From NCBI RefSeq assembly GCF_028369105.1, contig NZ_JAQNDO010000001.1, forward strand, positions 10,634,501 through 10,698,500: DNA of 64,000 bases, in the 5' to 3' direction. Source of the DNA: Polyangium mundeleinium (GTDB lineage Bacteria; Myxococcota_A; Polyangia; Polyangiales; Polyangiaceae). The translations under genes and the position numbers were made by a program. This document shows positions 3,201 through 19,906 of this stretch, in pieces. Position 1 is the stretch's first letter. Every line of letters begins with the position of its first letter. A model generated the notes under the pieces. It searched no databases and was not told the origin of the DNA. It saw only the letters and a list, made by a program, of their open reading frames with translations.

Positions 3201-5302
3201 GGCATGTTGGCCAGGAAGAGCCGCCCGATCCGCAGATGCACCTCTGCGCGGACTTCCTCCGAGAGGAGCGAATAAGCCGCCTCCTGGATGCGGTCGTGGA
3301 CGAAACGGTAGCCATCCCCCAAACGGAGGAGGAGCCCGACGCGGACGGCCTCCCATAACGCCGCGTGCACCTCGTCCTCCCCGTCGCCGCGAATCATCGA
3401 GAGCGTGGCAGCGTCCGCTCGGTTGCCGAGGCACGCGACGCTGGTCAGCACGTCCTGGGTATCCGCTGGGAGCCGCTTCAGCTTGTCGACCATCAGGTCG
3501 ACCACGTTGTCGGTGAAGCATTTTTCGCGAATCCGGGCCACATCCCACCGAAATGCCACGGCATTCTCGTCGAATTCGATCAAGCGTTCCTCGTACAGCG
3601 CGGTGAGGAACTGGATGACGAAGAATGGGTTGCCGGCCGTCTTTTCGTGCACCAGCTCCGAGAGCGGCTCAGCCTCCTCCACGGAGCAGCGGAGGGTATC
3701 GCTGATGAACGCCGCGAGGTGAACCTTCGGAAGCGGGCCGAGGACGATGTCGGACACGCGCACGGCCGATTTCCGCACCTCGTTCATCGCCAGAATGAGC
3801 GGATGGGTGGGGGGGACCTCGTTGTTGCGGTAGGCGGCGACGACGAGGAGGCTATGCATCTCGGGATCGGTCAGGAGGTCCTGGAGGAGCGCGAGGCTGG
3901 CCGAATCGGCCCACTGCATGTCGTCGACGAAGAGCACGAGGGGGTGCTCCCGCTGCGCGAAGACCCCGATGAATTGCCGGAACACGATGTGGAACCGGTT
4001 TCGCGCCTCGCCAGGCGGCAAAACAGGGACCGGGGGTTGCTCGCCGAGGACGAGCTCGACCGGTGGGATCACGTCCGTGATGAGCTTGCCGTTGATCCCG
4101 AGGGCCGCCGCGAGCCGCTGCTTCCATGCGGCGACCCGCTCCTCGCTCTCGGCCAGGATCCCGAGCACGAGCTCCTGGAAGGCCTGGACGATCGTGGAAT
4201 AAGGGATATCGCTCTTGATCAGGTCGAATTTGCCCGAAACGAAGAAGGCCCGCTCGCGAACGACGGGCTCGTGAAGCTTGTGGACGAGCGCGGATTTGCC
4301 GGCCCCCGGGTCCCCGGCGACGAGCACGAGTTCCGGCGTCCCCGTGGCCACGACGCGCTCGAAAGCGTCGCACAGGAGGGAGATCTCCGCTTCCCTGCCA
4401 TGGAGCTTCTGCGAGATCTGGAGGCGGTCCGGCACGTCGAGCGCGCCCGGGGGGAAGGGCTCGATACGCCCGCTCTCGACCCATTGCGCGAGGCACCTCT
4501 CCAAGTCGTGCAATACGCCGCGCGCACTCTGGTATCGGTCGCAGGCCATCTTCGCGAGGAGATGCATCACGATGCGCGCAATGGCCTCGGGCACCTCGGG
4601 GACGACCACGGAGGGGGATGGCGCGACACGCGCCAGGTGAAAATGAATCCATTCGAGCGGATCTCGCGCCTCGAACGGGGGTTTGCCCGTGAGCATTTCG
4701 TAGAACGTGATGCCGAGCGAATAGAGGTCGGTGCGGGAATCGACTGCCCGGTTCATCCGCCCCGTCTGCTCCGGCGACATGTACGGCAGCGAGCCCTCGA
4801 TTTTGTCCGGGCTCTGCGGCGAGGTGTGCTCGCGGGGAAGGCGGGACGCAATCCCGAAATCCGTGAGTTTTGCCTCACCCGTCACGGGATTGACGATGAT
4901 GTTCTGGGGCTTGATGTCCTTGTGGACGACGCCCTGCCGGTGGATGTCCGCAATCGCAGTCGTGATGCGAATCGCGAGCCGCAGAAAGCGCTCCGTCTCC
5001 ATCGGCGCTCCGAGCAAGCGGTCGAGAGGCGTACCCGCCGTGTCCTCCAGAACGAGCGCCGGCTGCCCGTGATATGTGTCGAGGGCGAGCGGCCTGATGA
5101 CGGTCGGCAGGTCCAGCGCCTCGCCCAGCGCTTGCTCGTGCTTCAATCGTTCGATGTCCTGCGGGCGGCTGCTCTTCGGATCGAGCGCCTTGAGGATCAC
5201 CTGGCGGCCATCACTTTCTCGGATGGCGCGGAGCACGATCGTCCCCCGCCCCTCGAAAAGGGTCTCGGTGATCGTGTACGGGGCGGGGCTCGGCATCACC
5301 AT
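203..5302 (-). CDS. Hybrid Ser/Thr protein kinase / AAA ATPase / GAF / histidine kinase (C-terminus frameshifted)
   Basis: A cytoplasmic signalling protein of about 1700 residues. An N-terminal Ser/Thr kinase (residues about 9-280) has the VILK lysine, HKDIKPQN catalytic loop (127-134) and DFG (148-150). An ATPase module follows, with a P-loop GDPGAGKS near 330 and Walker B LVLFVDD near 455. After a long helical-repeat region come two GAF-like domains (about 1340-1490 and 1510-1660) and a HisKA H-box, SHELNTPLTSL. The frame then ends at 203, although histidine-kinase homology continues in another frame to the window edge. This architecture is common in myxobacteria as a trifunctional kinase. 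I start at ATG 5302 (MVMPSP); the longer frame adds a low-complexity MTATAT tail coded by a hexamer repeat. No clear Shine-Dalgarno is visible. The input signal is unknown. Confidence 0.9.
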   Translation of the reverse strand: MVMPSPAPYTITETLFEGRGTIVLRAIRESDGRQVILKALDPKSSRPQDIERLKHEQALGEALDLPTVIRPLALDTYHGQPALVLEDTAGTPLDRLLGAPMETERFLRLAIRITTAIADIHRQGVVHKDIKPQNIIVNPVTGEAKLTDFGIASRLPREHTSPQSPDKIEGSLPYMSPEQTGRMNRAVDSRTDLYSLGITFYEMLTGKPPFEARDPLEWIHFHLARVAPSPSVVVPEVPEAIARIVMHLLAKMACDRYQSARGVLHDLERCLAQWVESGRIEPFPPGALDVPDRLQISQKLHGREAEISLLCDAFERVVATGTPELVLVAGDPGAGKSALVHKLHEPVVRERAFFVSGKFDLIKSDIPYSTIVQAFQELVLGILAESEERVAAWKQRLAAALGINGKLITDVIPPVELVLGEQPPVPVLPPGEARNRFHIVFRQFIGVFAQREHPLVLFVDDMQWADSASLALLQDLLTDPEMHSLLVVAAYRNNEVPPTHPLILAMNEVRKSAVRVSDIVLGPLPKVHLAAFISDTLRCSVEEAEPLSELVHEKTAGNPFFVIQFLTALYEERLIEFDENAVAFRWDVARIREKCFTDNVVDLMVDKLKRLPADTQDVLTSVACLGNRADAATLSMIRGDGEDEVHAALWEAVRVGLLLRLGDGYRFVHDRIQEAAYSLLSEEVRAEVHLRIGRLFLANMPEEAIEEQIFDIVSQLNRGVALNTDPREKESLRRLNFLAGMKAKATVANVSARNYLAQATALLPKDAWSALYDDTLRLYLERSECEYLVGNFEVADELFNLILAHARSNLDRAAVYGLRMRLYQVSGRYDDGVTVALEALRLFDVTFPDSDELLKAATEAEVQIIRTNLRGRRVADILDAPVATDPDGRTIIGLLVEAAPCAYIGRPKLFPLLALKAVSSSLWYGSTPESCFAYSVYGMMLVSAYGDIPLGYAFSEMSLRLNEKFHDLRLKGTLLHLHGDHINFWRRPFVTDIPILEQAFQACLEVGDLVYAGFLAFETVWQAVEKGDPLDEVLVLSQKYAAFARQSHNIPVYETIRLERQFVACLKGETQGPTSFDDATFHEATCLAGISRATFGCGLVFHDIMKQITAFTYGRHAEALSFAARAAANLSAAMAMPIEATHHFFHALTMVQLLPDAPADEREELTRALGGVLQKLAAWAENCPENYLNRYALVSAEVARVEGRDLDAMHLYEQAIRSARENGFVHNEGLAYELSSRFYRARGFEQVADTYLRDARACYARWGADGKVRQLDEQNPRLQEHRPFTPTATFALRTEQLDLLSVVKASQTISGEILLDELARTLLRVVLEEGGAQKSYLLLLREGDLSIEAEARLEEKGAVTRLLPSLPVLSSPLVPASIVRYAQRTKERVLLDDATASKFASDPYIARERPKSVLCLPILRQAHVVGLLYLENNLLIGAFTPGRLVALSLLAVQVAISLQNARLLSDEQAARAAAEEAERRSAFLAEAGELLSESLDYEDTLARLGRLCVRSMADWCVIDTVEGEEIRRIAVVHKDPAKAPLVEELRRRYPPHMGSPHPAARAIATGEPVLLPDLDTRLRDHTQDEGHERIIRALGLRSLLAVPLLARGQTLGVLSLVTGASGRNYGSADVELAKEVARRAASAIDNARLYRATQEAIRARDEFLSMASHELNTPLTSLMLSLQSMGRAANRAPPATHRS

Positions 5303-5553: not shown

Positions 5554-6201
5554 TCAGGAGGGAATGACCTTTCGCATGGAGCGACGGGTGACGAGCCAGA
5601 AGAGGACGATGATGGTGACCGTCGCCACGCCCATGCCAATCCACACCGAAGGCGGCGCGCTGCGCATGGCGTCGAAGACTTTCTCGCCGAAATAGGCGGT
5701 CGCCAGCAGGGGTAGGAAATACCCGGCCAGCGAGCCCCAAAAATGCGTCTGGAACCGCACCCGCGAGATGCCGAAGAACACGTGGAGCATGGGCGGCATC
5801 CAGAAGATGAGGCGGAGCAGAAAGACGGTGAAGAAGGCTCGCTTTTCGAGGGCCTCCTCGTAGGCGCGGAAGCGCGCCGGTACGAGCTTCGAGACCCAAT
5901 CACGCGCGACGAAGCGCGCGAACGAGAAGCCCACCACGCTCGCCGCCATGGTGCCGACCATGGAGAGCGCGAATGCCACCGGCCACGGCCAGATGAGCGG
6001 CGCCGCGAGGATGAAGATCGTGCCCGGCACGCCAAACGGCTGGAGCGCGGCGTACGCCGCCACGAACGCGAAATACCCCGCCGGCCCGAGCTCCACGAGC
6101 GCCTGCTTGATGCGCGCGGGCTCGCTGAAGACCTCGAACAGGCCCAAGCGCTGCGCCACGACGAGCCCGATGGCCACCGCGGCCACGGCGGCGATCTTCA
6201 T
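5554..6201 (-). CDS. TVP38/TMEM64 (VTT/DedA-like) family membrane protein
   Basis: A polytopic inner-membrane protein of about 215 residues with five or six hydrophobic segments. The VTT-family core is visible: PFGVPGTIFILAAPLIW in the first third, the VGTMAASVVGFSFARFVARDW helix, and FLLRLIFWMPPMLHVFFGIS. These proteins are DedA-superfamily members implicated in membrane homeostasis or lipid scrambling; the substrate here is unknown. The open frame extends to a TTG at 6303, but that lies inside a palindrome that overlaps a likely promoter, so I use ATG 6201 (MKIAAV), which begins right before the first membrane helix. A GTG at 6252 is an alternative. It is divergent from a TetR regulator that may control it. 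Confidence 0.85.
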   Translation of the reverse strand: MKIAAVAAVAIGLVVAQRLGLFEVFSEPARIKQALVELGPAGYFAFVAAYAALQPFGVPGTIFILAAPLIWPWPVAFALSMVGTMAASVVGFSFARFVARDWVSKLVPARFRAYEEALEKRAFFTVFLLRLIFWMPPMLHVFFGISRVRFQTHFWGSLAGYFLPLLATAYFGEKVFDAMRSAPPSVWIGMGVATVTIIVLFWLVTRRSMRKVIPS

Positions 6202-6262
6202 GTTGCGGAGCGAGCGGCTCGCCGCGGGGTCAGGCGGGGGGTCGGGCGAACGCACGCGACGA

Positions 6263-6303
6263 GGTTTACAATTCACGTCTCCCTTGTCAAGTCTGGTTGA
6301 CAA
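6263..6303 (-). promoter_or_regulatory. Probable promoter of the TVP38-like gene overlapped by a TetR-type operator palindrome
   Basis: Bases 6284-6303 read TTGTCAAGTCTGGTTGACAA, an inverted repeat with perfect 7-bp arms and a 6-bp spacer, the size expected for a TetR-family operator. On the minus strand its left arm supplies TTGACA, followed after 16 bases by TAAACC (6268-6263), a plausible -35/-10 pair for the TVP38-like gene. A second small palindrome, GTCAACTTTGAC, sits at 6318-6329 next to the start of the tetR-like gene. The arrangement suggests repression of the divergent pair by the adjacent regulator. Inferred from sequence only. Confidence 0.6.
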
Positions 6304-6315
6304 GTTTGGCTTGCA

Positions 6316-7005
6316 GTGTCAACTTTGACCACCGTGAGCGAGACGAGCTCCAGCGATAGGTACGTGGAAGACCCGCGCCGCCGCAAGCTGATGGACGCGG
6401 CGCTCACGGTGTTCACGCGGTTCGGCTTCCGGAAGGCGTCGATGGACGAGGTGGCGCGCGCCGCGGGCATCTCGCGTCAGGGTCTTTACCTGCATTTCGC
6501 CACCAAGGAAGATCTGTTCTGCGCGTCGGTGGAATATCTCCTCGTCACCGCGCTCGCCAGCGCGACGGCGGTCCTCGCGGACGCGGAGCTGCCGCTGGAG
6601 AAGAGGCTCGTGGCGGCGTTCGACGCGTGGGTCGGCCGGTTCGTCGGCGCGCTCGGGCCCGAAGCTTCGGACCTCGGCCCCGCCGCGAAGGAGCTCGTCG
6701 GCCCCATGGTCGGCGAGCATGAAGCGCAGTTCGTCGAGGACGTGGCCAAGGCCCTGCGCGCCTCCGGCCTTCTGGCCATCTACAAGCCCGCGGGGGTCAC
6801 TGGGCCCAAGCTCGCGGAGACGTTGTATGCCACGGCGCGCGGGCTGAAGCACGGCAGCGCGACCCGCGATGAATTCGTCGAGAGCATGAGCATCGCGGTG
6901 CGCGTGATGTGCCTGCCGCTGCGGGAGGCCGAGAAGACCACGGCGAGCCCATACGTGGAGGGCGGCGGCAGCCGGCCACGCAAGCCACGCGGCAAAGGGC
7001 GATAG
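6316..7005 (+). CDS. TetR/AcrR family transcriptional regulator
   Basis: A 229-residue one-component repressor. The N-terminal helix-turn-helix is clear: RRRKLMDAALTVFTRFGF, then ASMDEVARAAGISRQGLYLHF and ATKEDLF, with the ligand-binding domain after residue about 70. The ligand is unknown. Possible starts are GTG 6316, TTG 6325 and GTG 6334; none has a good Shine-Dalgarno and all lie beside the operator-like palindromes, so the start is uncertain by a few residues. It is followed after 16 bases by an SDR-like gene, with GAGGGCAAGAGAG upstream of that gene's ATG, suggesting an operon. The divergent TVP38-like gene is the likely regulatory target together with autoregulation. Confidence 0.92.
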   Translation: MSTLTTVSETSSSDRYVEDPRRRKLMDAALTVFTRFGFRKASMDEVARAAGISRQGLYLHFATKEDLFCASVEYLLVTALASATAVLADAELPLEKRLVAAFDAWVGRFVGALGPEASDLGPAAKELVGPMVGEHEAQFVEDVAKALRASGLLAIYKPAGVTGPKLAETLYATARGLKHGSATRDEFVESMSIAVRVMCLPLREAEKTTASPYVEGGGSRPRKPRGKGR

Positions 7006-10453: not shown

Positions 10454-11242
10454 CTACCCGCGTTTCGGAGGGCGATACCGGATGATCACCACGTGCAGGT
10501 GGGCATCTTCGTCCAGGCGGGAGGTCTGAATCGAGACCGCCCCTTCTTTTTTCAGCTTCTGAAAATCCGCTGCGGTCAGCGTCAGCTTGTGCGGATGCCC
10601 GGCGAGACCTTGCACATCGTAGGTCTTGTCCGCACCGGAGGCCATGTCGGCGGCGGTAATCACCACCTCGTGCTCGTCTTTCCCGGTGAACTCGGCCGAA
10701 CAGACGCTCACCCACTCCGGCGGATCCTCCGCGGGCGCGCATCGCACGTGCACGCGGTGCGTATGCGTGAGACCCTGGGTGCTCTTGGCGCGCAAAAGCT
10801 CCCCCTTCAAAAGGGTCTTCATATCCTCCGCCGTGAGCGTCACCTCGTGCGGATGCTTCGCCGTCCCCGCGATCGGATAGGTCTTTTCGACCCCCGCCAG
10901 GACGTCGGCCAGCGTCACCACGAAGACGTGGCCATGGTTCTTTCCAACCCTGCAAATCACCCTTGAAAACGACGGCTCGGGCGGCTTTGCCGCGGGCTCG
11001 GGAGCCGTATTCGCGGCAGGCTCGGGAGCCGCATTCGCGGCGGGCTCCGGCGGGGCTTCGGAGGAAGCCGCGGTCGCGTTCGGCTGCGCGGTCGGTCCGG
11101 GCGTGGGGGCGGCGCTCTTGCCGGAAGCCGTTGTCGCGGAGGCCGTTTGCCCTGTCGCAGGGTTCGGAGCGCTGGCACCACACCCCGTCCATGGGAGCGA
11201 CGCTGCGGCTGCTGCGATTTGGAGAGCTTGTCGCCTGCGCAT
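10454..11242 (-). CDS. Secreted protein with duplicated His-rich domain, Ala/Pro/Glu-repeat linker
   Basis: A 262-residue exported protein with no family I can name. The N-terminus MRRRQALQIAAAAASLPWTGCG resembles a lipoprotein or Tat-like signal. A linker of EPAANAAP-type repeats follows (about 55-90). The rest is two copies of one domain: copy one carries KTYPIAGTAKHPHEVTLTA and ends THTHRVHV, copy two carries KTYDVQGLAGHPHKLTLTA and ends AHLHVVII. The conserved HPH and HxH histidines in both copies suggest a metal site, but this is inference. ATG 11242 is preceded by GAGGT with five-base spacing; the longer frame is not needed. It is divergent from the sigma-factor operon at 11454 and convergent with the aminopeptidase. 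Confidence 0.8.
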   Translation of the reverse strand: MRRRQALQIAAAAASLPWTGCGASAPNPATGQTASATTASGKSAAPTPGPTAQPNATAASSEAPPEPAANAAPEPAANTAPEPAAKPPEPSFSRVICRVGKNHGHVFVVTLADVLAGVEKTYPIAGTAKHPHEVTLTAEDMKTLLKGELLRAKSTQGLTHTHRVHVRCAPAEDPPEWVSVCSAEFTGKDEHEVVITAADMASGADKTYDVQGLAGHPHKLTLTAADFQKLKKEGAVSIQTSRLDEDAHLHVVIIRYRPPKRG

Positions 11243-11453
11243 GAGTACCTCGAAGGAGTCTGCGGAATCGCGCTTCGCCAAAGGACAGAAGCGCAGGCTC
11301 CGCCCCGATTGTCAAGAGGCCCACGGGACGATGCAGGGGTGGGGCGGGACGGGCGGGGAGCGCTCCTCGGGTAGGGGGAGATGTCGTCTGGCACGCTCCC
11401 GCTTTCCGCCGTCCGCTTGCCCCCTCCGCGGGCAGGACGGTAGGTTCTCGGCC

Positions 11454-12116
11454 GTGCTCGCTCCCGAGCTGACCGTCACGCTGGTGGGAAAAGCCCTCGT
11501 GGGGGAGCGGCAGGCCGTGCGTGCGCTCGTCGACAGGCTCACGCCCGTCATCCAGATGCGCGTCGCGAGGGCGCTCCGGCGGCGCCGGGGGGCGGCGCTG
11601 GGGCGGGATGTCCGGCAGGAGGTCGAGGACCTCACGCAGTCCGTGTTCCTGGCCATCTTCGCGAACGGCGGGCAGGCCCTGCGCAAGTGGGACCCCGCCC
11701 GCGGCTCGTCGCTCGAAAGCTTCGTCGGACTGCTCGCCGACCACGAGATCGCCTCCATCCTGCGCAGCCGCCGGCGCAGCCCCTGGACCGAGGATCCGAC
11801 CACGAACGAGGATCTCGCCGAGGACGCGCCCCCGGGCGACGTCGGGCCCGAGCTCGAGACCCTCACCCGCGAGGCCTTGCGCACGATCGTCGACCGCCTC
11901 CGCGAGCGCCTGAGCGACCGCGGGCTCGAGCTCTTTTTCCTGCTCTTCGTGGAGGAGCGAGCCACCGAGGAGGTCTGCGCGGACACCGGCCTGACGCCGG
12001 ACGCGGTCTACGCGTGGCGCAGCCGGATCGGGAAGCTCGTCCGGCAGATCGCCGCCGAGATCGTGTCAGAAAACGAGGCTTCGGATCGTACCCTTCTCCG
12101 GAGGCCCCCCGAATGA
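11454..12116 (+). CDS. Sigma-70 family (ECF-like) RNA polymerase sigma factor
   Basis: A 220-residue alternative sigma factor with region 2 (RDVRQEVEDLTQSVFLAIF, then RKWDPARGSSLESFVGLLADHEI) and region 4 (LELFFLLFVEERATEEV and LTPDAVYAWRSRIGKLV) and little between, as in ECF-type factors. I start at GTG 11454 (VLAPELTVTL); the open frame runs upstream to 11103 but that part has no homology and crosses the divergent promoter region. Its stop overlaps the next start as ATGA, so it is translationally coupled to the membrane protein that is probably its anti-sigma factor. Targets may include the two promoters at 15798 and 16455. Confidence 0.9.
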   Translation: MLAPELTVTLVGKALVGERQAVRALVDRLTPVIQMRVARALRRRRGAALGRDVRQEVEDLTQSVFLAIFANGGQALRKWDPARGSSLESFVGLLADHEIASILRSRRRSPWTEDPTTNEDLAEDAPPGDVGPELETLTREALRTIVDRLRERLSDRGLELFFLLFVEERATEEVCADTGLTPDAVYAWRSRIGKLVRQIAAEIVSENEASDRTLLRRPPE

Positions 12117-12970
12117 CCACGGATGAGCTGCTGAAAGCCGTGGCGCAGGCGGCGCGCGACGACGAGGTCGAGGACGATCCGCGCTGGTCCGCCCTGGTCG
12201 AGGGGAAGCTGCCCGAGCAAGATCGCGCAGCGCTCGAAGAGCTCGCGAAGAACTCGCCGCGCCACGAGGAGGCCTGGCACATGCTCCGGCCGCTCGACGA
12301 GCAGGCCCGCGCGCGGTTCACGGACGGGATCCTCGCGCAGATGCAGGGGGAGAAAGCCGGCGCCGAGGAGAGCCGCTCCCCGGCGCCGCCGCGCGAAGGC
12401 GCTCAGGTGATCCCGCTTCCAAAAAGACGCACATGGCGGCCTGTGATCGCCGTCGCGCTGGCCGCCGCCGCGGCCGTCGCCCTGTTCGTCGGGCTGCGGG
12501 GATTACCGAGCACCGACGACAACGGCCCGATCGCCCTCCTGTCCTCCCAGGACCCGGTCCCTGCCTACGAGCTCACCCTCCTCGGCGGCGAACGAAGCAC
12601 CCGCACGGAGCCCATCCCGGCCGAGCCGCGCCCCACCGTGCGTCTTGGCTCAGGCTCGTCCCTTGAGATCGTGCTCCGCCCAGCCACCTCGGACCGGAAG
12701 CCCATCACCACGGGCGGCTTCTTGATCCAGGATGGGCGCGCGCGCGTGTGGGAGGTTCAGCCTGAAATTTCACCCGATGGCGCGATCCAGATCACAGGAG
12801 ATCGACAAGCCCTGTTCCCGAACGTGCCCGCAGGCTCGTACGAGCTCGTGATCGCCGTCGGCCGCCCCGGAGCGTTGCCCGACGCCGACGCGGTGGTCCG
12901 CGGCGCCGCAGGGGAGCGGGATGCGCGCGTGCGGCAGTTTCGCCAGTCGATCGTGCTCGTGGACCCATGA
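12113..12970 (+). CDS. Single-pass membrane protein, probable anti-sigma factor
   Basis: A 285-residue protein with a helical, acidic cytoplasmic N-terminus (1-100), one membrane helix (VIAVALAAAAAVALFVGLRG, about 108-127) and a beta-rich extracytoplasmic C-terminus of about 155 residues. Topology, position right after a sigma gene (4-base ATGA overlap) and the N-terminal size fit an anti-sigma factor. I do not see the HxxxCxxC zinc motif, so it would belong to a zinc-less type. The gene also overlaps the CHAT gene by ATGA, making a three-gene translationally coupled operon. The extracytoplasmic domain could be a sensor or a proteolysis substrate. Function inferred from context. Confidence 0.75.
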   Translation: MTTDELLKAVAQAARDDEVEDDPRWSALVEGKLPEQDRAALEELAKNSPRHEEAWHMLRPLDEQARARFTDGILAQMQGEKAGAEESRSPAPPREGAQVIPLPKRRTWRPVIAVALAAAAAVALFVGLRGLPSTDDNGPIALLSSQDPVPAYELTLLGGERSTRTEPIPAEPRPTVRLGSGSSLEIVLRPATSDRKPITTGGFLIQDGRARVWEVQPEISPDGAIQITGDRQALFPNVPAGSYELVIAVGRPGALPDADAVVRGAAGERDARVRQFRQSIVLVDP

Positions 12971-15765
12971 GGCGGCCAAGACCGGCGCGCGCGTCCTCGC
13001 TCTTTCCCGCCCTGCTCTTCGCGCTCGCGCTCCTCACGCCCGGCGATACACGCCCCAACGCGACCGCCTCCGCCCCGCCGCCCCCGCCGCCCCTGCCGCT
13101 CGACGTCGAGGTCGCGGGCTGCGGCGCCGTGCTCGCCGATCCCGCTTGCGAGCTGCCCGAGGATCGAACGCTGCGAATCTGGGTGAAAGCGCCGCCGGGG
13201 GCCCGGATCGAAGCAGCCCTCGACGACGACGCCGCGCCGCTCGACGGCGCCGCAATCCAGGGCGGCACGCTCGGCCGAATCGAGGTCCCCGCCCCTACGC
13301 GCGAGCTCTCTGTCACGGCCACGCTCGGCGATCGGCGCGCGTCGTTCCGGCTGCCGATCCGCCCGCCGAGCCCCGATCCCGCCTTGAAGGAGGCCGAGTC
13401 CCTTCGCCAGGCGGGCAAACTCGATGAGGCCGCGGCGCGCCTCACGAAGGTGGTCTCCGATCCCGATCCGACGCGCAGGGCGAAAGCGCTCGGCAAGCTC
13501 GCACGGATCGACCGGGCCCAGGGCCGGATCGAGGAGGCGATCGGCCGCTTCGAGGACAGCATGCGGGCCCACCGCGCGCTCGGCCGGATCTCCGACGAGT
13601 TCCTCGATGGGTTCGCGCTCTATTACACGTTGACCTACCACGGGCGGAGGCTCGCCGAGGCGCGGCGCGTGCTCGATCGCCTCGAACCGCTCGCGGATCG
13701 CCACCCGGAGGGGCGCGTGCTCCTGTCCTACTACGCCGGGCTGCTCTCGTCCGAGACCGGCGATCTGCGCACCACGCTGCGGCTCCTCCGCGCCTCGGCC
13801 GAGGGCGCCGAGCGGCTCGGGCTCGCCATGCACCGCCTCGACGTGCTGCAGCTCGAAGCCGACATGCTGCAGATCCTCGGCCGAGGCGCGGAGGGCGAAG
13901 CGCGCCTCGCCGAGGTGCGCGCGTCGTTCCCCGCAGACGCGAGCCCGTGCCGAACGGCCTCGATGCATACGAGCGTCGGCTGGTTCGCCTTGCAAGCCAT
14001 CGCGCGGGGCGATCGGTCGGAGCTACGCATCGAGGACGCCCACGCGGCGTTTTCGCGCGCGCTCGCCCTTCATCAGGGCGCGTGCCCGGACCCCGAGAAG
14101 CTCGCCAATGCGCTCACCAACCTCGCGCTGGCCGAGCTGTTCGGCGGAGACGCCGCGCAGGCGGCCGCGTACCTCGCCCGCGCGCGCCGCGAGCGGCCCG
14201 ATCCGGATGCGCGCCTCGTGGTGTGGCTGCTCGACATCGAAGGTCGCATCACCCTCGGGCGCGGCGATCCAGCACGCGCGCTCCGGATCTACGAACGCAT
14301 GGCGGACATCGCGGCGGCCGGCGTACTCCCGGCGAGCCGCTTTCGCGCGGCGCTCGGGCGCGCAGAGGCGTTCGAAGTGCTCGGGCGCGTGGCCGCCGCG
14401 AAGACGGCGTATGCCGAGGCCGAGGCGCTCCTCGACGACCACAGCCTGCTCGTCCCGCTGGGGCAGGGGCGCGAGACCTTCCTCGGCCGGTTCGACGAGG
14501 GCGCTCGCCGGCGGGTCGATTTCCTCCTGCGCCACGATCCGGCCGAGGCCGCCATGGCCGCGCGTCGCTCGCGCGCGCGGTCGCTCGCGGCGCTCCGATG
14601 GCAGGGCCGCATCGAGGCGCTCGGCCCCGAGGAGCGCGCTCGCTGGGAGGGCGCCATTCTTTCGTATCGGCGCGAGCGGGATGCGCTCGATCACGAGGCC
14701 CGCGGCGACTGGAAGCTCGCGGCCGACGCGCTCGCGCGGGCCCGCGCCGCGAGGAGCGCCCGCGAGGCGAAGCTCGAAGCTGCGCTCGATCAAGCGCTTG
14801 TGGTGCTCGGGCGCGTCGAGGTCGACGGAGGCGCGGCGTTGCCCCCCGTCGCTCCGGGCGAGCTGCTCCTCGTGTACCACCCGATCCGCGCCGGCTGGGC
14901 GGGGTTTGCCCTCACCCGCGAGGGCGTCACGGCGCGCAGGCTGCCCGCGCCGAGCGCCTCTCCGACCCCGGAGGAGCTTTCCCGCTTGCTGCTCGACCCC
15001 TTCGGAGACGCCCTCACGAACGCACGGCGGATCCGGCTCGCGCCTTATGGCGAGCTCGATCGCATCGATGTTCACGCGCTGCCCTGGAAAGGCGCGCCGC
15101 TGCTCGCGCGCGCGCCGGTGGCTTATGCCGTTGATCTCCCCGGGCGCGGCGAAAGCGCCCCGGTGCCGGCCGTGGAGCAAGCGGCCTGGGCCGTGGTGGT
15201 GGCCGATCCGCGGCGCGACCTGCCGGCGGCGCGGCGCGAGGCCGAGCTCGTCGCCGGGGCGCTCGAAGAACGAGGGGGCCTTCGCGTGCGGCGTTTGTGG
15301 GCCCGCGAGGCCACCCTGGGCGCGGTGCGCGAGGGGCTCGAAGCCCCCGGGGCCGTGCTCTTCCACTATGCGGGGCATGGCTTCTTCGGCGGGCGTGACG
15401 GGTGGGAGAGCGGCTTGCCGCTCGCGGAGGGCGGCTTTCTGAGCGTGCGGGACGTCCTCTCCTTGCCGCGGGTACCGGCGCACGTCGTGCTCTCCGGTTG
15501 CGACACGGCGCGGACGGCGGCCGAGGCGCGGGCCGAGGGGCTCGGGCTTGCCCAGGCGTTCGTCGTGGTCGGTGCTCGGTCGGTGATCGCGGCGACGCGC
15601 CCGATCGACGATCACATGGCCCAGCGGATGATGGCGGCGCTTTATGGATCGCCCTCCGCGCGTGGCCCGATCGACGCGGTGGCCGCCCTGCGTGACGCGG
15701 CGCTCGCGGTCCGGGCCGAGGACGCCGCGTCCGACTGGGCGAGCTTGCGCGTGCTCGTGCCCTGA
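12967..15765 (+). CDS. Secreted TPR-CHAT domain protease
   Basis: A 932-residue protein with an N-terminal signal or anchor (SSLFPALLFALALLTPG), a Pro-rich spacer, a long TPR-like helical array (about 140-600) and a C-terminal CHAT (caspase/separase-like) domain. The catalytic dyad is visible: His804 in FHYAGHG and Cys845 in VVLSGCDTA. CHAT proteins are cysteine peptidases whose partners bind the TPRs. The start overlaps the preceding membrane protein by ATGA. Being exported, it could act on the extracytoplasmic part of that probable anti-sigma factor. It is terminal in the operon, and two lipoprotein genes with a shared promoter motif follow. Confidence 0.9.
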   Translation: MRRPRPARASSLFPALLFALALLTPGDTRPNATASAPPPPPPLPLDVEVAGCGAVLADPACELPEDRTLRIWVKAPPGARIEAALDDDAAPLDGAAIQGGTLGRIEVPAPTRELSVTATLGDRRASFRLPIRPPSPDPALKEAESLRQAGKLDEAAARLTKVVSDPDPTRRAKALGKLARIDRAQGRIEEAIGRFEDSMRAHRALGRISDEFLDGFALYYTLTYHGRRLAEARRVLDRLEPLADRHPEGRVLLSYYAGLLSSETGDLRTTLRLLRASAEGAERLGLAMHRLDVLQLEADMLQILGRGAEGEARLAEVRASFPADASPCRTASMHTSVGWFALQAIARGDRSELRIEDAHAAFSRALALHQGACPDPEKLANALTNLALAELFGGDAAQAAAYLARARRERPDPDARLVVWLLDIEGRITLGRGDPARALRIYERMADIAAAGVLPASRFRAALGRAEAFEVLGRVAAAKTAYAEAEALLDDHSLLVPLGQGRETFLGRFDEGARRRVDFLLRHDPAEAAMAARRSRARSLAALRWQGRIEALGPEERARWEGAILSYRRERDALDHEARGDWKLAADALARARAARSAREAKLEAALDQALVVLGRVEVDGGAALPPVAPGELLLVYHPIRAGWAGFALTREGVTARRLPAPSASPTPEELSRLLLDPFGDALTNARRIRLAPYGELDRIDVHALPWKGAPLLARAPVAYAVDLPGRGESAPVPAVEQAAWAVVVADPRRDLPAARREAELVAGALEERGGLRVRRLWAREATLGAVREGLEAPGAVLFHYAGHGFFGGRDGWESGLPLAEGGFLSVRDVLSLPRVPAHVVLSGCDTARTAAEARAEGLGLAQAFVVVGARSVIAATRPIDDHMAQRMMAALYGSPSARGPIDAVAALRDAALAVRAEDAASDWASLRVLVP

Positions 15766-15797
15766 TTCGCGCGCTGCCAGAAAAAAGTGGTGAGGTT

Positions 15798-15825
15798 GTC
15801 AGACCCGGAGGGGCGGCGTCGTAAG
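15798..15825 (+). promoter_or_regulatory. ECF-like promoter, motif copy 1
   Basis: GTCAGA (15798-15803), 14 bases, then GTCGTAAG (15818-15825), preceded by TGAGG and an A-rich tract. The same two blocks with identical 14-base spacing occur at 16455-16482 in front of the next gene. A -10 element containing CGTC is typical of ECF sigma promoters, and TGTCAGA resembles the TGTCACA element known for the ECF41 group. It lies 20 bases before the ATG at 15846. Confidence 0.6.
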
Positions 15826-15845
15826 GGATAGGCGCGGAGGATACG

Positions 15846-16262
15846 ATGCGAAATCGAATTGCGTTCGGATTGTGCATTCTGGTCATGGGTTGCGCCTCGG
15901 GCAGCGTCCCCGACACCAAGGAGAGCGGAGGCGTCGCCATGGCCCGCACGCTGCCGAAGCCGACCGATCCGCAATGCGGCGCGTGCTCGTACGTGCTGGC
16001 CGAACGTGCGGTGCACGCTTCGCTGGACGGCAGGGACAACATGCCGACGATGGATCTCATCCTTTACACGCCGACGAAGCAGGTCCTCCAGAGGCACGTC
16101 GGCCTCGCGCCCCGAACGTACGCTCCGGGCAAAGCAACGTATGCGGTCCCGGACGGCGCGACGAGGGACGTCGCTTATGGCGAGCTCAGTTGGCAGGGCC
16201 TGACGGGTCAGCAAAAACAAATCATCCCGGTCACGTTCAAGTCCGAAATCCCCATCGAATGA
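15846..16262 (+). CDS. Small secreted lipoprotein of unknown function
   Basis: A 138-residue protein with a short lipoprotein signal (MRNRIAFGLCILVMGCASG, Cys16) and a mature domain containing CGACSYVLAER, a CxxC pair, followed by beta-rich sequence. I do not recognise the family. The ATG at 15846 is preceded by GGAGGAT six bases upstream. It has its own ECF-like promoter motif, shared with the LamG-type gene that follows, so both are probably co-regulated, possibly by the sigma factor encoded just upstream. Confidence 0.8.
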   Translation: MRNRIAFGLCILVMGCASGSVPDTKESGGVAMARTLPKPTDPQCGACSYVLAERAVHASLDGRDNMPTMDLILYTPTKQVLQRHVGLAPRTYAPGKATYAVPDGATRDVAYGELSWQGLTGQQKQIIPVTFKSEIPIE

Positions 16263-16653
16263 CCCGCGCGCGCCCCCTGCGCGCCGCCCCGCCTCCCCTC
16301 CTCCCGCCTCCCGGCCCCCTGCCCACCCGTATTGCCTCCGCCGCCGCCTCGCGCATCCCCATGCGTGATGCGCCCACGTGCGCGCGGCGAGGATCCGATC
16401 AAAGCCGTGTCGCGCCGAAGCCGTAGCGGCCCCCAAAATAAAATGATGAGGGTCGTCAGAAACCGGGAGGCCTCGTCGTAAGAACCATCGAGGCAAGCGC
16501 GAGGACACGGAAAGAGCGCTGCCTCGGAGATTCCGCGTGGGAAGGCGAGGTACGGGCGCTACGAGCGTCCGCGGGCACGTCTGCCCCGAGAGCCATCGCC
16601 CCTGCGGGGGCACCAGACGAACCCCATTCGTACCCAGAGAAAGAGAGACTTCC
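16263..16653. other. 391-base intergenic region carrying the second ECF-like promoter
   Basis: No credible coding frame is present. The left half is a very C-rich stretch; around 16434-16446 there is an A-rich tract leading into the promoter motif at 16455-16482. If transcription starts near 16490, the following gene has a leader of about 160 bases, longer than usual and possibly regulatory, though I see no recognisable riboswitch. Confidence 0.6.
16455..16482 (+). promoter_or_regulatory. ECF-like promoter, motif copy 2
   Basis: GTCAGA (16455-16460), 14 bases, GTCGTAAG (16475-16482), again preceded by TGAGG and an A-rich tract. It matches the copy at 15798-15825 in sequence and spacing while the flanks differ, which argues for selection on the motif. 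It precedes the LamG-type protein gene. Confidence 0.6.
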
Positions 16654-17427
16654 ATGAAGACGAACTCGATTTTCGCGGCATTGCTCATCGGCACCGGCCT
16701 CGTCGCGACGGCTTGTATTGCGGCCCCTGGCGTCGCGGACGACGGCGTCGCGGAGGAGGACGGCGCGGAGGCGCTCGTCGGCGAGGCCGAGGAGGCGCTG
16801 CAAATCGCATGGCCCGTCGCGGCGTGGCATTTCGATGTCAACTGCAGCGGCGCCACCGCGTTCGATTCATCGGGCAACGATCTGCACGGCGTCCGGTCGG
16901 GCGGCGTGAATTGCGCGGCGGGCGCGAAGGGCGGCAAGAGCCTCGAGTTCAACGGGACCAACGGCAAGGTCGAAATCCCGGACCATGCGGCGCTCGATTT
17001 CACGACGGCCATGACCGTCTCGGCTTGCGTGAAGCCCCAGTCCACCGCGTCGGGCACCATCCTGAGCAAATGGTACGCCCTCGATTCCTACCAGCTCGCC
17101 ATGTCCTCGGGGAACGTCTTTTTCGCGGTGGCATTCCCCGGCGGCTCGTGGGGCGTCACGAAGGAGGTGACCGCGCCGGCGACGACGGGCGTGTGGCAAC
17201 ACGTGGCCGGCGTCTACGACGGGGCGAACCTGCTCCTTTACCGCAATGGCACCCTCGTGGCGTCCACGCCGGCGAGCGGGACGCTGCAGCCGTCGAGCCG
17301 CCCCGTGGTCATCGGCAATCACCCGTCCTGGAGCGCGTTCAATGGCAACATCGACCACGTCTATCTGTACAACCGCGCGCTCACGGCCGCGGAGATCGGG
17401 ACGTTGAAGGCCGAGTGCCTGAACTGA
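16654..17427 (+). CDS. Secreted LamG-like (concanavalin A-like) domain lipoprotein
   Basis: A 257-residue protein: lipoprotein-type signal with GTGLVATAC (Cys22), a short acidic segment (EEDGAEALVGEAEEAL), then one LamG jelly-roll domain. The domain is recognisable from WHFDVNCSGATAFDSSGN, EIPDHAALDFTTAMTVSACV, WQHVAGVYDGANLLLYRNG and IDHVYLYNRALTAAEI. Such domains bind glycans or proteins at the cell surface. Start ATG 16654 follows an AAAGAGAGA ribosome-binding site. The gene is convergent with an RpoH-like sigma gene 12 bases downstream. Confidence 0.88.
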   Translation: MKTNSIFAALLIGTGLVATACIAAPGVADDGVAEEDGAEALVGEAEEALQIAWPVAAWHFDVNCSGATAFDSSGNDLHGVRSGGVNCAAGAKGGKSLEFNGTNGKVEIPDHAALDFTTAMTVSACVKPQSTASGTILSKWYALDSYQLAMSSGNVFFAVAFPGGSWGVTKEVTAPATTGVWQHVAGVYDGANLLLYRNGTLVASTPASGTLQPSSRPVVIGNHPSWSAFNGNIDHVYLYNRALTAAEIGTLKAECLN

Positions 17428-17439
17428 CAGACGCGCAGG

Positions 17440-18273
17440 CTACGACGGGACCTCGCCCGCGAGCGTTCGCAGGCGGCCGCGCATACGCTGCTTGGCGGCC
17501 TCCTCGACCTGGCGGATGCGCTCCTTGCTCACGCCGAACGCTGACCCGAGCTCCGCCAGCGTCGCCGGCTCGTCCGACATCAGGCGCCGCTCGAGCACCT
17601 GCTGCTCCCGAGGCGAAAGCTCGGCCAGCGCTGTTTTCACGGCGCATTGCAGGCGCGCGCGCTCGTCGGCCAGACAAACCTCTGCCTCGGGCGAGGGCGC
17701 GCCGTCCGCCGGGCCGTCGCTGTGGGTCGATGTATCGAGCGGCGCGTCGGGCCCAGCGAGCAAGGGGATCAGTTCGTGGGCGCGCTGCTCGGACAGGCCC
17801 GTCTTCTCGGCGAGCGTCGTCGCATCCTTCACGAACGCCCGGCGAAAGAAGCGCACCGCCCGCCGCTCCGCCTTCGACGTGCCGAGGCGCACGATCCGAT
17901 AGTTACGCGTCACGTAATCGCGGATCTCGGCGCGAATCCAGTAATTCGCGAACGTCGCGAGCCGATATCCGCGCGCCGGATCGAAGCGCTCGGCCGCCTG
18001 GAGCAGGCCGATGTTGCCCTGCTGCACGATGTCCTCGAACGGCGCGCCCCAGCGCTGGTATTCGCGCGCGATCGTCATCACGTACGACAGGCACGCCTCG
18101 ATGAGCAGCCGCCCGGCCTCACGATCGCCTGCCTTCCAGCGAATCGCGAGATCGCGCTCGACCTCCGCGGTCAGGATCCGCCGCCTTGCGATCTCGGCGC
18201 GGTACATCGACAGCGCGTCGTGGCGCGGCGCCGCGCCCAGCCTTCGACGCCTTTCTTTCTCTCCGTCGCGCAA
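17440..18273 (-). CDS. RpoH-like (sigma-32 type) RNA polymerase sigma factor
   Basis: A 277-residue sigma factor with regions 2-4 of the RpoH subgroup: IVQQGNIGLLQAAERFDPARG, YRLATFANYWIRAEI, then IVRLGTSKAERRAVRFFRRA, matching the RpoH-box area, and a C-terminal helix-turn-helix LAELGSAFGVSKERIRQVEEA. I choose TTG 18273 because GAGAGGAG lies seven bases upstream; ATG 18207 (MYRAEIARR) is the alternative and the frame is open to 18330. Myxobacteria carry several RpoH-like paralogs, so a general heat-shock role cannot be assumed. It lies 43 bases downstream of the exporter gene on the same strand and could be part of its transcript. Confidence 0.9.
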   Translation of the reverse strand: MRDGEKERRRRLGAAPRHDALSMYRAEIARRRILTAEVERDLAIRWKAGDREAGRLLIEACLSYVMTIAREYQRWGAPFEDIVQQGNIGLLQAAERFDPARGYRLATFANYWIRAEIRDYVTRNYRIVRLGTSKAERRAVRFFRRAFVKDATTLAEKTGLSEQRAHELIPLLAGPDAPLDTSTHSDGPADGAPSPEAEVCLADERARLQCAVKTALAELSPREQQVLERRLMSDEPATLAELGSAFGVSKERIRQVEEAAKQRMRGRLRTLAGEVPS

Positions 18274-18316
18274 GAGACAGCTCCTCTCGTTGAACGTTCG
18301 CGGGGGGCGCTTGCCC

Positions 18317-19906
18317 TCAATGCCCCGCATCCACCTTGACCCCTTGCTGCGGTTTGCCGAGCAGCATCACCAGGGGCAAAAACAGCACGATCAGCATGCC
18401 GGCGAGCCAGAACGTGTCCGCGAACGACATGATCGAGCCCTGCTGCGCCACCGTCCCTGAGAGCAGCGAAAGCGCGCGCTGCTTGGCCTCCACCGCGGAC
18501 GCGCCTTTCGCCATCATCGCGCCCGTCAGCATGTTGACTCGCTCGATCGTCGCAGGATCGTTCGACACGAGCTTCTCTGCCACGACGGCCGCGTGAAAGG
18601 CCTGCCGCCGCGTCAGCATCATCGAGAGCAGCGCGACGCCGACGCTGCCCCCGAGCATGCGCGTCAAATTGAAAAACCCCGTCGCGGAGGCGACGTCCTT
18701 GCGCGGAATGGGACCAAGCGAGGCCATCGAAAGCGGCAAGAACATGAACACGGTGCCCAACGAGCGCACGATGAGCGGCCAGAAGAGATCGTCGCCGCTC
18801 GTCATCGGATTCATCGTGGAGAACATCGCCAGCGAGCCCGCCAGGATGAGCGCCCCGATCACCAGCATGAGCCGCGGATCCATCTTCCGCGCCAGCCTCC
18901 CCGCGACCTGCATCATCGCCGCCGTGGCGAGCGCGCCGGGCAGCATCATGAGGCCCGTCTGTTGGGACGTGTAACGCAGGTTCGTCTGCGCGAAGATCGG
19001 CACCGCGAAAAGCCCGCCATACAGGGCCATACCCACGACCACCGAGAGGATGCTGCCCGCCCATAACGAGCGGTACCGGAGCACGCGCAGGTCCACGACG
19101 GGCTCGTCCGACGCGAGCGCGCGCCGCACGAAGAGCACGAGCGACACGATCGACGCGACGCACAGGACGACGATCATCGGATCATCGAACCAGTCGTGGG
19201 AATTTCCCTCCTCGAGGAACGTCTGCAGGCAACCGAGGCCAATGGCCAGCATGGCGATGGAGGCCCAGTCGATGCCCTTCGGAGGCGTCTTGTGCGGCTC
19301 GTCGGGCGGGAGCGCCGAGAGGCAAAGCAGAACCGCGAGCACGCCGAGCGGCAGGTTGATGAAGAAGATCCACCGCCAGCCGATGTTCGTCACGATGTAA
19401 CCGCCCAGCGTGGGGCCGATCGCGGGACCCGCGATGACGATGGCCCCGAAGAACGATTGCGCCGTGGCCTGCTCCTCCTTGGGAAACGTCTCGAAGAGGA
19501 TCGACTGCGCCTTGGCCATCAGGCCGCCGCCCGTGATCCCCTGCAAAACACGCGCGATGACCAGCATCGGCAGGCTCGTCGAGAGCCCGCACAGGAGCGA
19601 GGCCACCGTGAAGCCCACGAGCGAGAAGATGAAATACTTTTTCTTGCCAAACCTGTGCCCCAGCCACGCGGCGAGCGGCAGGATGATGACGTTCGCGACG
19701 GCGTAACTCGACACGATCCAGCTCGCCTGGCTGAGCGACGCGCCAAGCGAGGTCTGCATGTCGGCGAGCCCCACGTTGACGATGCTCGTGTCGATGACCT
19801 CGAGCAGCGCGCCGATGGCCACCGCGATGGCCACGGCCCACTTGTTGTTTTGGGGCGCGGCGACGGCGAGCGCGGGCGGCGCGACAGCGAGCTGAGCCTG
19901 GGCCAC
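18317..19906 (-). CDS. emrB: DHA2-family MFS multidrug exporter (EmrB/QacA type)
   Basis: A 529-residue major-facilitator drug/proton antiporter with about 14 membrane helices. Family signatures are visible: LLEVIDTSIVNVGLADMQ in helix 1, the LAAWLGHRFGKKKYF loop motif, and GPAIGPTLGGYIVTNIGWRWIF for motif C and the DHA2 region. It would work with the adaptor encoded immediately upstream (10-base gap) and an outer-membrane channel encoded elsewhere. The start is GTG 19906 with AGGAGGT five bases upstream. Regulated with emrA from the divergent promoter carrying the twin operator. The substrate is unknown. Confidence 0.92.
   Translation of the reverse strand: MAQAQLAVAPPALAVAAPQNNKWAVAIAVAIGALLEVIDTSIVNVGLADMQTSLGASLSQASWIVSSYAVANVIILPLAAWLGHRFGKKKYFIFSLVGFTVASLLCGLSTSLPMLVIARVLQGITGGGLMAKAQSILFETFPKEEQATAQSFFGAIVIAGPAIGPTLGGYIVTNIGWRWIFFINLPLGVLAVLLCLSALPPDEPHKTPPKGIDWASIAMLAIGLGCLQTFLEEGNSHDWFDDPMIVVLCVASIVSLVLFVRRALASDEPVVDLRVLRYRSLWAGSILSVVVGMALYGGLFAVPIFAQTNLRYTSQQTGLMMLPGALATAAMMQVAGRLARKMDPRLMLVIGALILAGSLAMFSTMNPMTSGDDLFWPLIVRSLGTVFMFLPLSMASLGPIPRKDVASATGFFNLTRMLGGSVGVALLSMMLTRRQAFHAAVVAEKLVSNDPATIERVNMLTGAMMAKGASAVEAKQRALSLLSGTVAQQGSIMSFADTFWLAGMLIVLFLPLVMLLGKPQQGVKVDAGH

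Follow-up and report, generated by a model that had tools for sequence, protein, structure and literature searches.

Three consecutive genes on the forward strand of the window, the whole 64,000-nucleotide stretch of Polyangium mundeleinium DNA analysed here, encode an extracytoplasmic function (ECF)-type sigma factor, P0001 (11454..12116, 220 aa, GTG start), a single-pass membrane protein in the anti-sigma position, P0002 (12113..12970, 285 aa), and a very probably exported TPR-CHAT protein, P0003 (12967..15765, 932 aa). An earlier reading of the same DNA (the original prediction) had claimed three genes with an ATGA overlap at both junctions, and the open reading frames of the window are arranged in exactly this way. 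We consider it highly likely that the three work together as a sigma/anti-sigma/CHAT signalling module. Gene order and its conservation, export signals, the catalytic dyad, and the motif and residue patterns described below were all established by computation.

P0003 starts with a signal sequence (about residues 1-34), followed by an immunoglobulin (Ig)-like domain (44-132), a TPR region (138-615) and a CHAT domain (632-932), and its structure was modelled with a predicted local distance difference test (pLDDT) score of 89.7 and a predicted template modelling (pTM) score of 0.86. The CHAT family PF12770 matched at 5.5e-33, with 115.1 bits against a curated cut-off of 24. The dyad announced by the original prediction was confirmed: His804 (codon 15376..15378, forward strand) and Cys845 (15499..15501, forward strand) are H and C, respectively, in 38/38 members, and neither is missing from the fused proteins L044 and L054.

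The export signal of P0003 is hydrophobic and lacks a lipobox, while a loose pattern finds a lipobox in 35 of 47 CHAT homologues, a count made after removal of 20 loci that were duplicates or near-copies, the host genome's ten other CHAT loci and CHAT matches weaker than 1e-20. The remaining 12 comprise two fused proteins, six that are borderline by eye (L043, L055, L093, L114, L118 and L168), and four (L045, L057, L069 and L085) that, like P0003, have a hydrophobic N-terminus alone. Two cysteine pairs, C52/C61 and C328/C373, are kept in at least 90% of the 38 CHAT proteins, which would suit disulphides formed outside the cytoplasm. Because most homologues carry a lipobox, a paralogue has the same part fused behind a membrane span, and both cysteine pairs are conserved, P0003 is very probably exported.

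When the model of P0003 was searched with Foldseek the best match was the transmembrane anti-sigma factor DdvA (8rot, 7.7e-15), followed by separase and Csx29, and on realignment the Z scores were 30.0 for Csx29 (475 residues, root-mean-square deviation 7.7), 25.6 for human separase, 24.2 for DdvA and 20.1 for gingipain R. The deviations for Csx29, DdvA and human separase are large (7-11), which presumably reflects a different bend of the TPR superhelix. PADLOC returned one weak match for P0003, to BovA (7.1e-5 over 59 residues).

The sigma factor had been described as ECF-like, and this held. The family models stay below their cut-offs with P0001, namely the ECF superfamily model TIGR02937 (38.2 bits, cut-off 42.9), Sigma70_r2 PF04542 (21.9 bits, cut-off 24) and the region 4 model PF08281 (11.5 bits, cut-off 25.7), yet the profile of its family matches the solved ECF sigma 9isn_F at 3e-14 over profile positions 8-199 of 218. 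Among 22 family members, 16 match region 2 and 9 match region 4 at E 0.01. Judged by sequence, P0001 is an ECF-type sigma factor.

P0002 is divided by one hydrophobic span (residues 109-129, 12437..12499 on the forward strand, from hydropathy and model) into a helical inside domain (1-85) and an outer Ig-like beta-sandwich (about 150 to 285); the model (pLDDT 83.1, pTM 0.53) places helices at 3-85, starts the sandwich at 152 and leaves 156 residues outside, where 155 had been claimed. The same topology recurs in the genes next to the sigma gene, 47/49 of which encode one hydrophobic span (L104 and L111 have none), with basic residues commoner on the N side of the span in 45/47 (exceptions L102 and L114) and with an outer part of 121-176 residues in the unfused forms. 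This survey, like the upstream comparison below, left out 12 loci seen twice and L070, and obtained no next gene for L089, L107 and L110; the anti-sigma alignment left out L104 and L111, which lack the span, and the near-copies L045, L051, L052 and L053.

Whether P0002 is an anti-sigma factor at all had to be weighed against the idea that it anchors the CHAT protein while the sigma factor is controlled otherwise. This idea draws on the inside domain, which has no significant family match (Pfam holds no family for P0002), and on the absence of cysteine from P0002, which deprives it of the zinc-binding HxxxCxxC motif of many anti-sigma factors; no zinc anti-sigma family was found when 43 members were scanned singly, and a hand-written consensus of the inside domain reached zf-HC2 only at E 0.016, below the family cut-off. 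We nevertheless regard a pure anchor as very improbable. In 31/51 loci a start codon is available that overlaps the stop of the sigma gene (ATGA/GTGA pattern), the sigma gene adjoins the membrane protein in 18 of the 20 loci that the anti-sigma profile selected, and the helical inside domain, single span and weak zf-HC2 likeness all suit an anti-sigma factor, as does a layout resembling that of DdvA-type proteins, which bear the zinc motif. A profile of the inside domain by itself reaches two generic anti-sigma-like proteins, L149 and L150, at about 1e-3, and the classical zinc protein L153 is matched by the full P0002 profile, not by the inside domain alone; these matches are suggestive of homology to zinc anti-sigma domains. 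The only fold matches obtained for P0002 were of beta-sandwich type and concerned its outer part (Foldseek best E 3.2e-4; NPC2 Z 9.3), so that the inside domain was barely tested by them, and a search of the PDB with the P0002 profile gave no match to Csx30. From gene order, topology and the helical inside domain we infer that P0002 binds and inhibits P0001.

Loss of the triplet in relatives had been set beforehand as an observation that would count against the original prediction, and the triplet proved to be conserved. The sigma alignment, run against named genomes with one peptide pattern, located 40 loci, with Sorangium cellulosum, Labilithrix, Plesiocystis, Enhygromyxa and metagenome-assembled genomes of Acidobacteriota among the sources; 12 of these loci overlap the set of 28 described next. 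A family CHAT is present at 31 of the 40, although at two (L088 and L094) it is partial. Within the order a P0002-like protein occurs in 22/144 genomes, and the 28 loci round anti-sigma matches contain a sigma match in 23 cases and a CHAT match in 22. Phylum-wide the anti-sigma profile matches 54/282 genomes, the weakest matches spanning the inside domain and membrane span only; the 20 profile-chosen loci mentioned above, picked among the strong matches and including three from earlier sets, hold a CHAT in 14. The host genome (13.25 Mb) has 13 CHAT domains and three P0002-like proteins, and the latter accompany three CHAT genes, so that 3/13 CHAT genes are in triplets; the stretches round the other ten contain no P0001, P0002 or P0003 match at E 0.01. 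The association in the host genome is above chance, and for the loci of the comparisons the chance expectation is about 0.014 CHAT per stretch (simple arithmetic from 13 in 13.25 Mb).

The CHAT gene is not tied to one place, lying downstream, divergent or convergent. Among 10 genomes in which the pair was orphan or doubtful, 7 have a family CHAT at a different place or in a further copy, and G031, G069 and G173 have a family CHAT in stretches without a family sigma or anti-sigma (the G069 contig is 5.9 kb long). As G031 and G069 have one CHAT each and G173 has eleven, the last says little; going by these sequences, the CHAT protein can persist apart from the operon. Two further observations concern the wider family: three genomes from another family of the phylum (f36; G190, G322 and G234) have 7-9 matches to the anti-sigma profile per genome, and locus L198, found through DdvA, has a lipobox CHAT protein (2289-4814) near a sigma gene (5855-6496) that matches the P0001 family at 1.2e-24.

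Five of six Polyangium genomes have an extra locus in which the anti-sigma part and TPR-CHAT are fused; the resulting protein is 1051-1111 residues long, and its one span begins near residue 74-78. In these fusions the span replaces the signal peptide and thereby places the CHAT part outside, and in fused L054 both the Ig-like domain and the cysteine pair within it remain. The fused paralogue of the host genome, at 4219647, has the one-polypeptide layout of DdvA, which the window triplet does not. DdvA is the cognate anti-sigma factor of the ECF sigma DdvS of Myxococcus xanthus, and its inactivation activates DdvS, as described in passages of PMC4374960. The likeness is that of a myxobacterial ECF sigma with a transmembrane anti-sigma factor whose chain ends in CHAT (PDB 8rot and 8rw5, by title), and by alignment DdvA has the dyad His and Cys. 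The differences are these: DdvA is a single polypeptide of anti-sigma domain, span, TPR and CHAT, whereas the window module consists of separate genes with a separately exported CHAT protein; P0002 is cysteine-free and has its own Ig-like outer domain, whereas DdvA-like proteins have an N-terminal zinc motif; and the significant sequence match to DdvA is confined to the CHAT part (4.7e-11). The module is thus of the DdvA kind, but it is split, lacks the zinc motif and has its protease as a protein of its own that is exported. Genome G214 encodes at least three proteins like DdvA (L193, L194 and L195), each with zinc anti-sigma motif, span, TPR and CHAT.

These fusions, and the CHAT domain built into DdvA, would also fit a sensor that does not cut, in which TPR-CHAT binds the outer beta-sandwich of P0002 and alters its hold on the sigma factor, the peptidase serving self-processing or nothing. 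A TPR superhelix of about 480 residues with an Ig-like domain suits such a task, and the large C-terminal domain of DdvA has reportedly been proposed as a sensor. However, if binding were its only task, some lineages should have lost the dyad, and Cys or His is lost in 0/38 members, fused L044 and L054 included; we therefore think sensing without cutting rather unlikely.

Other known systems resemble the module in part. In type III-E CRISPR the TPR-CHAT protein Csx29 cleaves Csx30, an inhibitor of CASP-sigma, and cleavage relieves the inhibition, according to the cited part of PMC10028731; the combination of TPR-CHAT protease, inhibitor and ECF sigma is shared, and so is the fold. Csx29 differs in being activated by RNA via Cas7-11, as described there, and in having Ser where P0003 has Asp882. 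No Cas7-11 was found among the 7 proteins scanned, which cover 10454 to 18330 of the window. Csx29 acts in the cytoplasm. With RseA/DegS and RsiW the module would share the principle that a site-1 protease first cuts the outer part of a membrane anti-sigma factor and that others follow (described in parts of PMC10028731 and PMC8103513), the difference being that the first protease of RseA is the serine protease DegS and the one proposed here a clan-CD cysteine peptidase. In the ECF54 group CHAT, carboxypeptidase or subtilase genes lie near the ECF sigma and proteolytic control has been proposed, whereas the cited part of PMC8999054 gives it no anti-sigma factor and takes its table example from Geodermatophilus; we liken the two by description only. 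CalpL/T/S and SAVED-CHAT are further known relatives (PMC11229360 and PMC11417357, each as far as the cited passages go). The original prediction had treated a site-1 role as foreign to CHAT proteins, and this needs correction, given the CHAT in the anti-sigma factor DdvA and the cleavage of a sigma inhibitor by Csx29 (parts of PMC10028731). Its interpretation as a whole was partly supported: the triplet is conserved, the CHAT protein very probably exported, the dyad kept, and the promoters discussed below real and local. In a literature search made mostly at the level of titles and abstracts, where absence is unproven, we found no description of an exported CHAT protein, encoded separately, that accompanies an ECF sigma and an anti-sigma factor in the membrane. 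The novelty would lie in a site-1 protease that is a CHAT protein, both separate and exported.

If P0003 cuts P0002, a proposition that we consider evenly balanced, conservation singles out a candidate site. The candidate P1 residue is Arg164 (codon 12602..12604, forward strand), situated in the juxtamembrane loop on the outer side; of 43 anti-sigma proteins 40 have R there and 3 have G, and the residue after the R is G in 15, S in 15, A in 8, T in 1 and D in 1, that is G, S or A in 38/40. Arg164 comes after the strand 152-158, in a block (161-170) of mean pLDDT 64, and beyond it no other column reaches 30/43 until residue 189. A later set of 20 members, 3 of them already counted, has Arg164 in 20/20, followed by G, S or A. 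On the side of the enzyme, Asp882 (15610..15612, forward strand; D in 35/38) is a candidate acid for binding the P1 arginine, and the residue aligned to it in DdvA is also D. Arg is the residue after which separase and gingipain R cut, and in separase it is bound by an Asp located after the catalytic Cys; Asp882 may be the equivalent acid. Position 882 is A in L118, L119 and L120, which are exactly the loci with Gly at 164, and across the 49 loci for which both positions are available, three places being counted twice, the pairs are R and D in 45, G and A in 3, and R and N in 1. Repeated co-evolution of the two positions was considered and rejected, as only one clade is concerned.

Two sites downstream of the operon, at 15798..15825 and 16455..16482 on the forward strand, have an ECF-format promoter, GTCAGA-n14-GTCGTAAG, agree at 14 positions and are equally spaced, which bears out the claim of two nearby promoters with a shared motif. 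The format, TGTCAGA-n16-CGTA, is like that of the ECF41 promoter, TGTCACA-n16-CGTC, as given in part of PMC3426412. Each precedes a likely output gene on the forward strand: a small lipoprotein gene (15846..16262, 138 aa, lipobox VMGC read from sequence, no Pfam family) and a LamG-domain (Laminin_G_3) lipoprotein gene (16654..17427, 257 aa, PF13385 at 1.4e-28, lipobox ATAC read from sequence), whose products do not look homologous. In the 13.25-Mb genome the motif has two perfect sites, none at one mismatch and 15 at two; it was derived from both sites themselves, so their perfect match is no test, and a reversed control motif has 16 sites with up to two mismatches. A longer pattern at up to 3 mismatches found 6 sites in the window against 2.73 expected, equalled in 6/100 shuffles and thus not clearly above chance. 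An unsupervised dyad search did recover the GTCAGA-n14-GTCGTAAG dyad, dyads with fewer than 5 A/T of 12 having been removed before listing (45/49 in the window's group); for the other four locus groups this search gave no convincing shared promoter pair among those inspected, which were not all of them.

L045 and L046 retain both sites, each locus with a single base change (in L046 at the second site, in L045 at the first), and the small lipoprotein gene is present with its promoter in both. Three of six Polyangium genomes have the orthologous triplet and 2-3 motif sites there, G088 and G116 have no motif site, and G115 has two one-mismatch matches, both on contigs other than those that carry its two triplet loci. 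One extra site occurs on another contig in each of G105 and G107. From these motif patterns the sigma factor seems to control two neighbour genes and little else. In L045, from another Polyangium, the small lipoprotein gene is duplicated in tandem together with its promoter motif (10268 and 10760).

The operon itself begins differently. By eye, a sigma70-like promoter, TTGCCC-n18-TAGGTT, lies at 11417..11446 on the forward strand with the GTG of the sigma gene 7 nucleotides past the -10, a distance so short that the operon is probably leaderless; a stricter consensus scan called no promoter at 11417..11446. The promoter block is kept in L045 and L046, whose alignments reach exactly up to the GTG and so back this start (L046 has a one-base deletion directly ahead of it), and L049, L082 and L085 have TTGACG-n17-TATCCG with an ATG 7-9 nucleotides downstream. 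GTCAGA-n14-GTCGTAAG is not found in front of the operon, and of the words TTGTC and TGTCA, the only ones searched upstream of the sigma gene, there are two in the window and none in L045 and L046. This bears on whether the CHAT protein could be the effector of the system instead of its trigger, acting on other envelope proteins while general proteases inactivate the anti-sigma factor. Operon membership alone would fit such a role, and CHAT genes that are divergent, convergent or unlinked in other loci are what is often seen for effectors. But with a sigma70-like start and no downstream motif ahead of the operon the CHAT protein does not look like an induced output, and both the anti-sigma fusion and the Arg164/Asp882 pattern tie it to the anti-sigma factor; we consider an effector role improbable.

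Two neighbouring genes on the reverse strand complete the picture of the locus. That at 10454-11281 encodes an exported-looking protein with an arginine-rich start and, by eye, two similar stretches of about 60 residues, for which no Pfam family and no NCBIfam match above cut-off was found, and that at 17440-18330 encodes a second sigma factor, with regions 1.2, 2 and 4 above the Pfam cut-off.

The best explanation of the whole, which we favour by slightly better than even chances, is a transmembrane signalling module in which the CHAT protein triggers release of the sigma factor. The inside domain of P0002 would keep the ECF sigma at the membrane, and the exported TPR-CHAT protein would use its TPR superhelix and Ig-like domain to perceive a signal in the envelope. 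As a clan-CD cysteine peptidase it would then cut the outer domain of P0002; judging by conservation, the likeliest cut is that after Arg164, which sits on a flexible loop some 35 residues beyond the membrane. If the parallel with RseA holds, ordinary proteases within the membrane and in the cytoplasm may finish the stub, and the sigma factor, once free, would turn on a very small local regulon, as the promoter motifs suggest, consisting of the two lipoprotein genes just downstream. More tentatively, and with somewhat less than even confidence, an exported separase- or gingipain-like CHAT protein may be a dedicated site-1 protease that reads Arg164 and the small residue after it via an acidic Asp882 pocket, which would also explain the built-in CHAT of DdvA.

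Several observations weigh against this explanation, beside the missing family match and poor zf-HC2 score of the inside domain already mentioned. No CHAT match was found in 6 of the 28 anti-sigma loci (L056, L058, L059, L062, L063 and L070), nor in the stretch examined at 9 of the 40 sigma loci, 5 of these stretches being shorter than 10 kb, and a family CHAT is missing from 3 of the 10 genomes searched, namely G102 and G122, whose matches cover the outer part only with no sigma match alongside, and G141, whose match is weak. L118, L119 and L120 form one clade (100/100), so that the Arg164/Asp882 pairing is a single event, and this clade differs at D747 and E758 too; L177, with no sigma found beside it, pairs Arg164 with Asn882; the residue aligned to Asp882 by profile is S in Csx29; and Arg164 is kept without an adjacent CHAT in L062, L063, L082, L100, L103 and L106 and could be structural. 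On conservation it remains a candidate cleavage site. Finally, the extra motif site of G105 is perfect and lies away from the triplet.

In the cited passages of the 2015 report the signal that inactivates DdvA was given as unknown (PMC4374960). The split system separates what we presume to be the sensor and protease from its target, so that each can be expressed, mutated and mixed; the conserved Arg164 offers a specific and cheap single-residue test, and the two-promoter local regulon is a ready reporter. The module is a non-CRISPR relative of the Csx29/Csx30/sigma arrangement. If the proposed cleavage is true, a clan-CD cysteine peptidase would join the proteases that start the destruction of anti-sigma factors, and in Myxococcota and Acidobacteriota bacterial transcription would be triggered from outside by a caspase-like enzyme.

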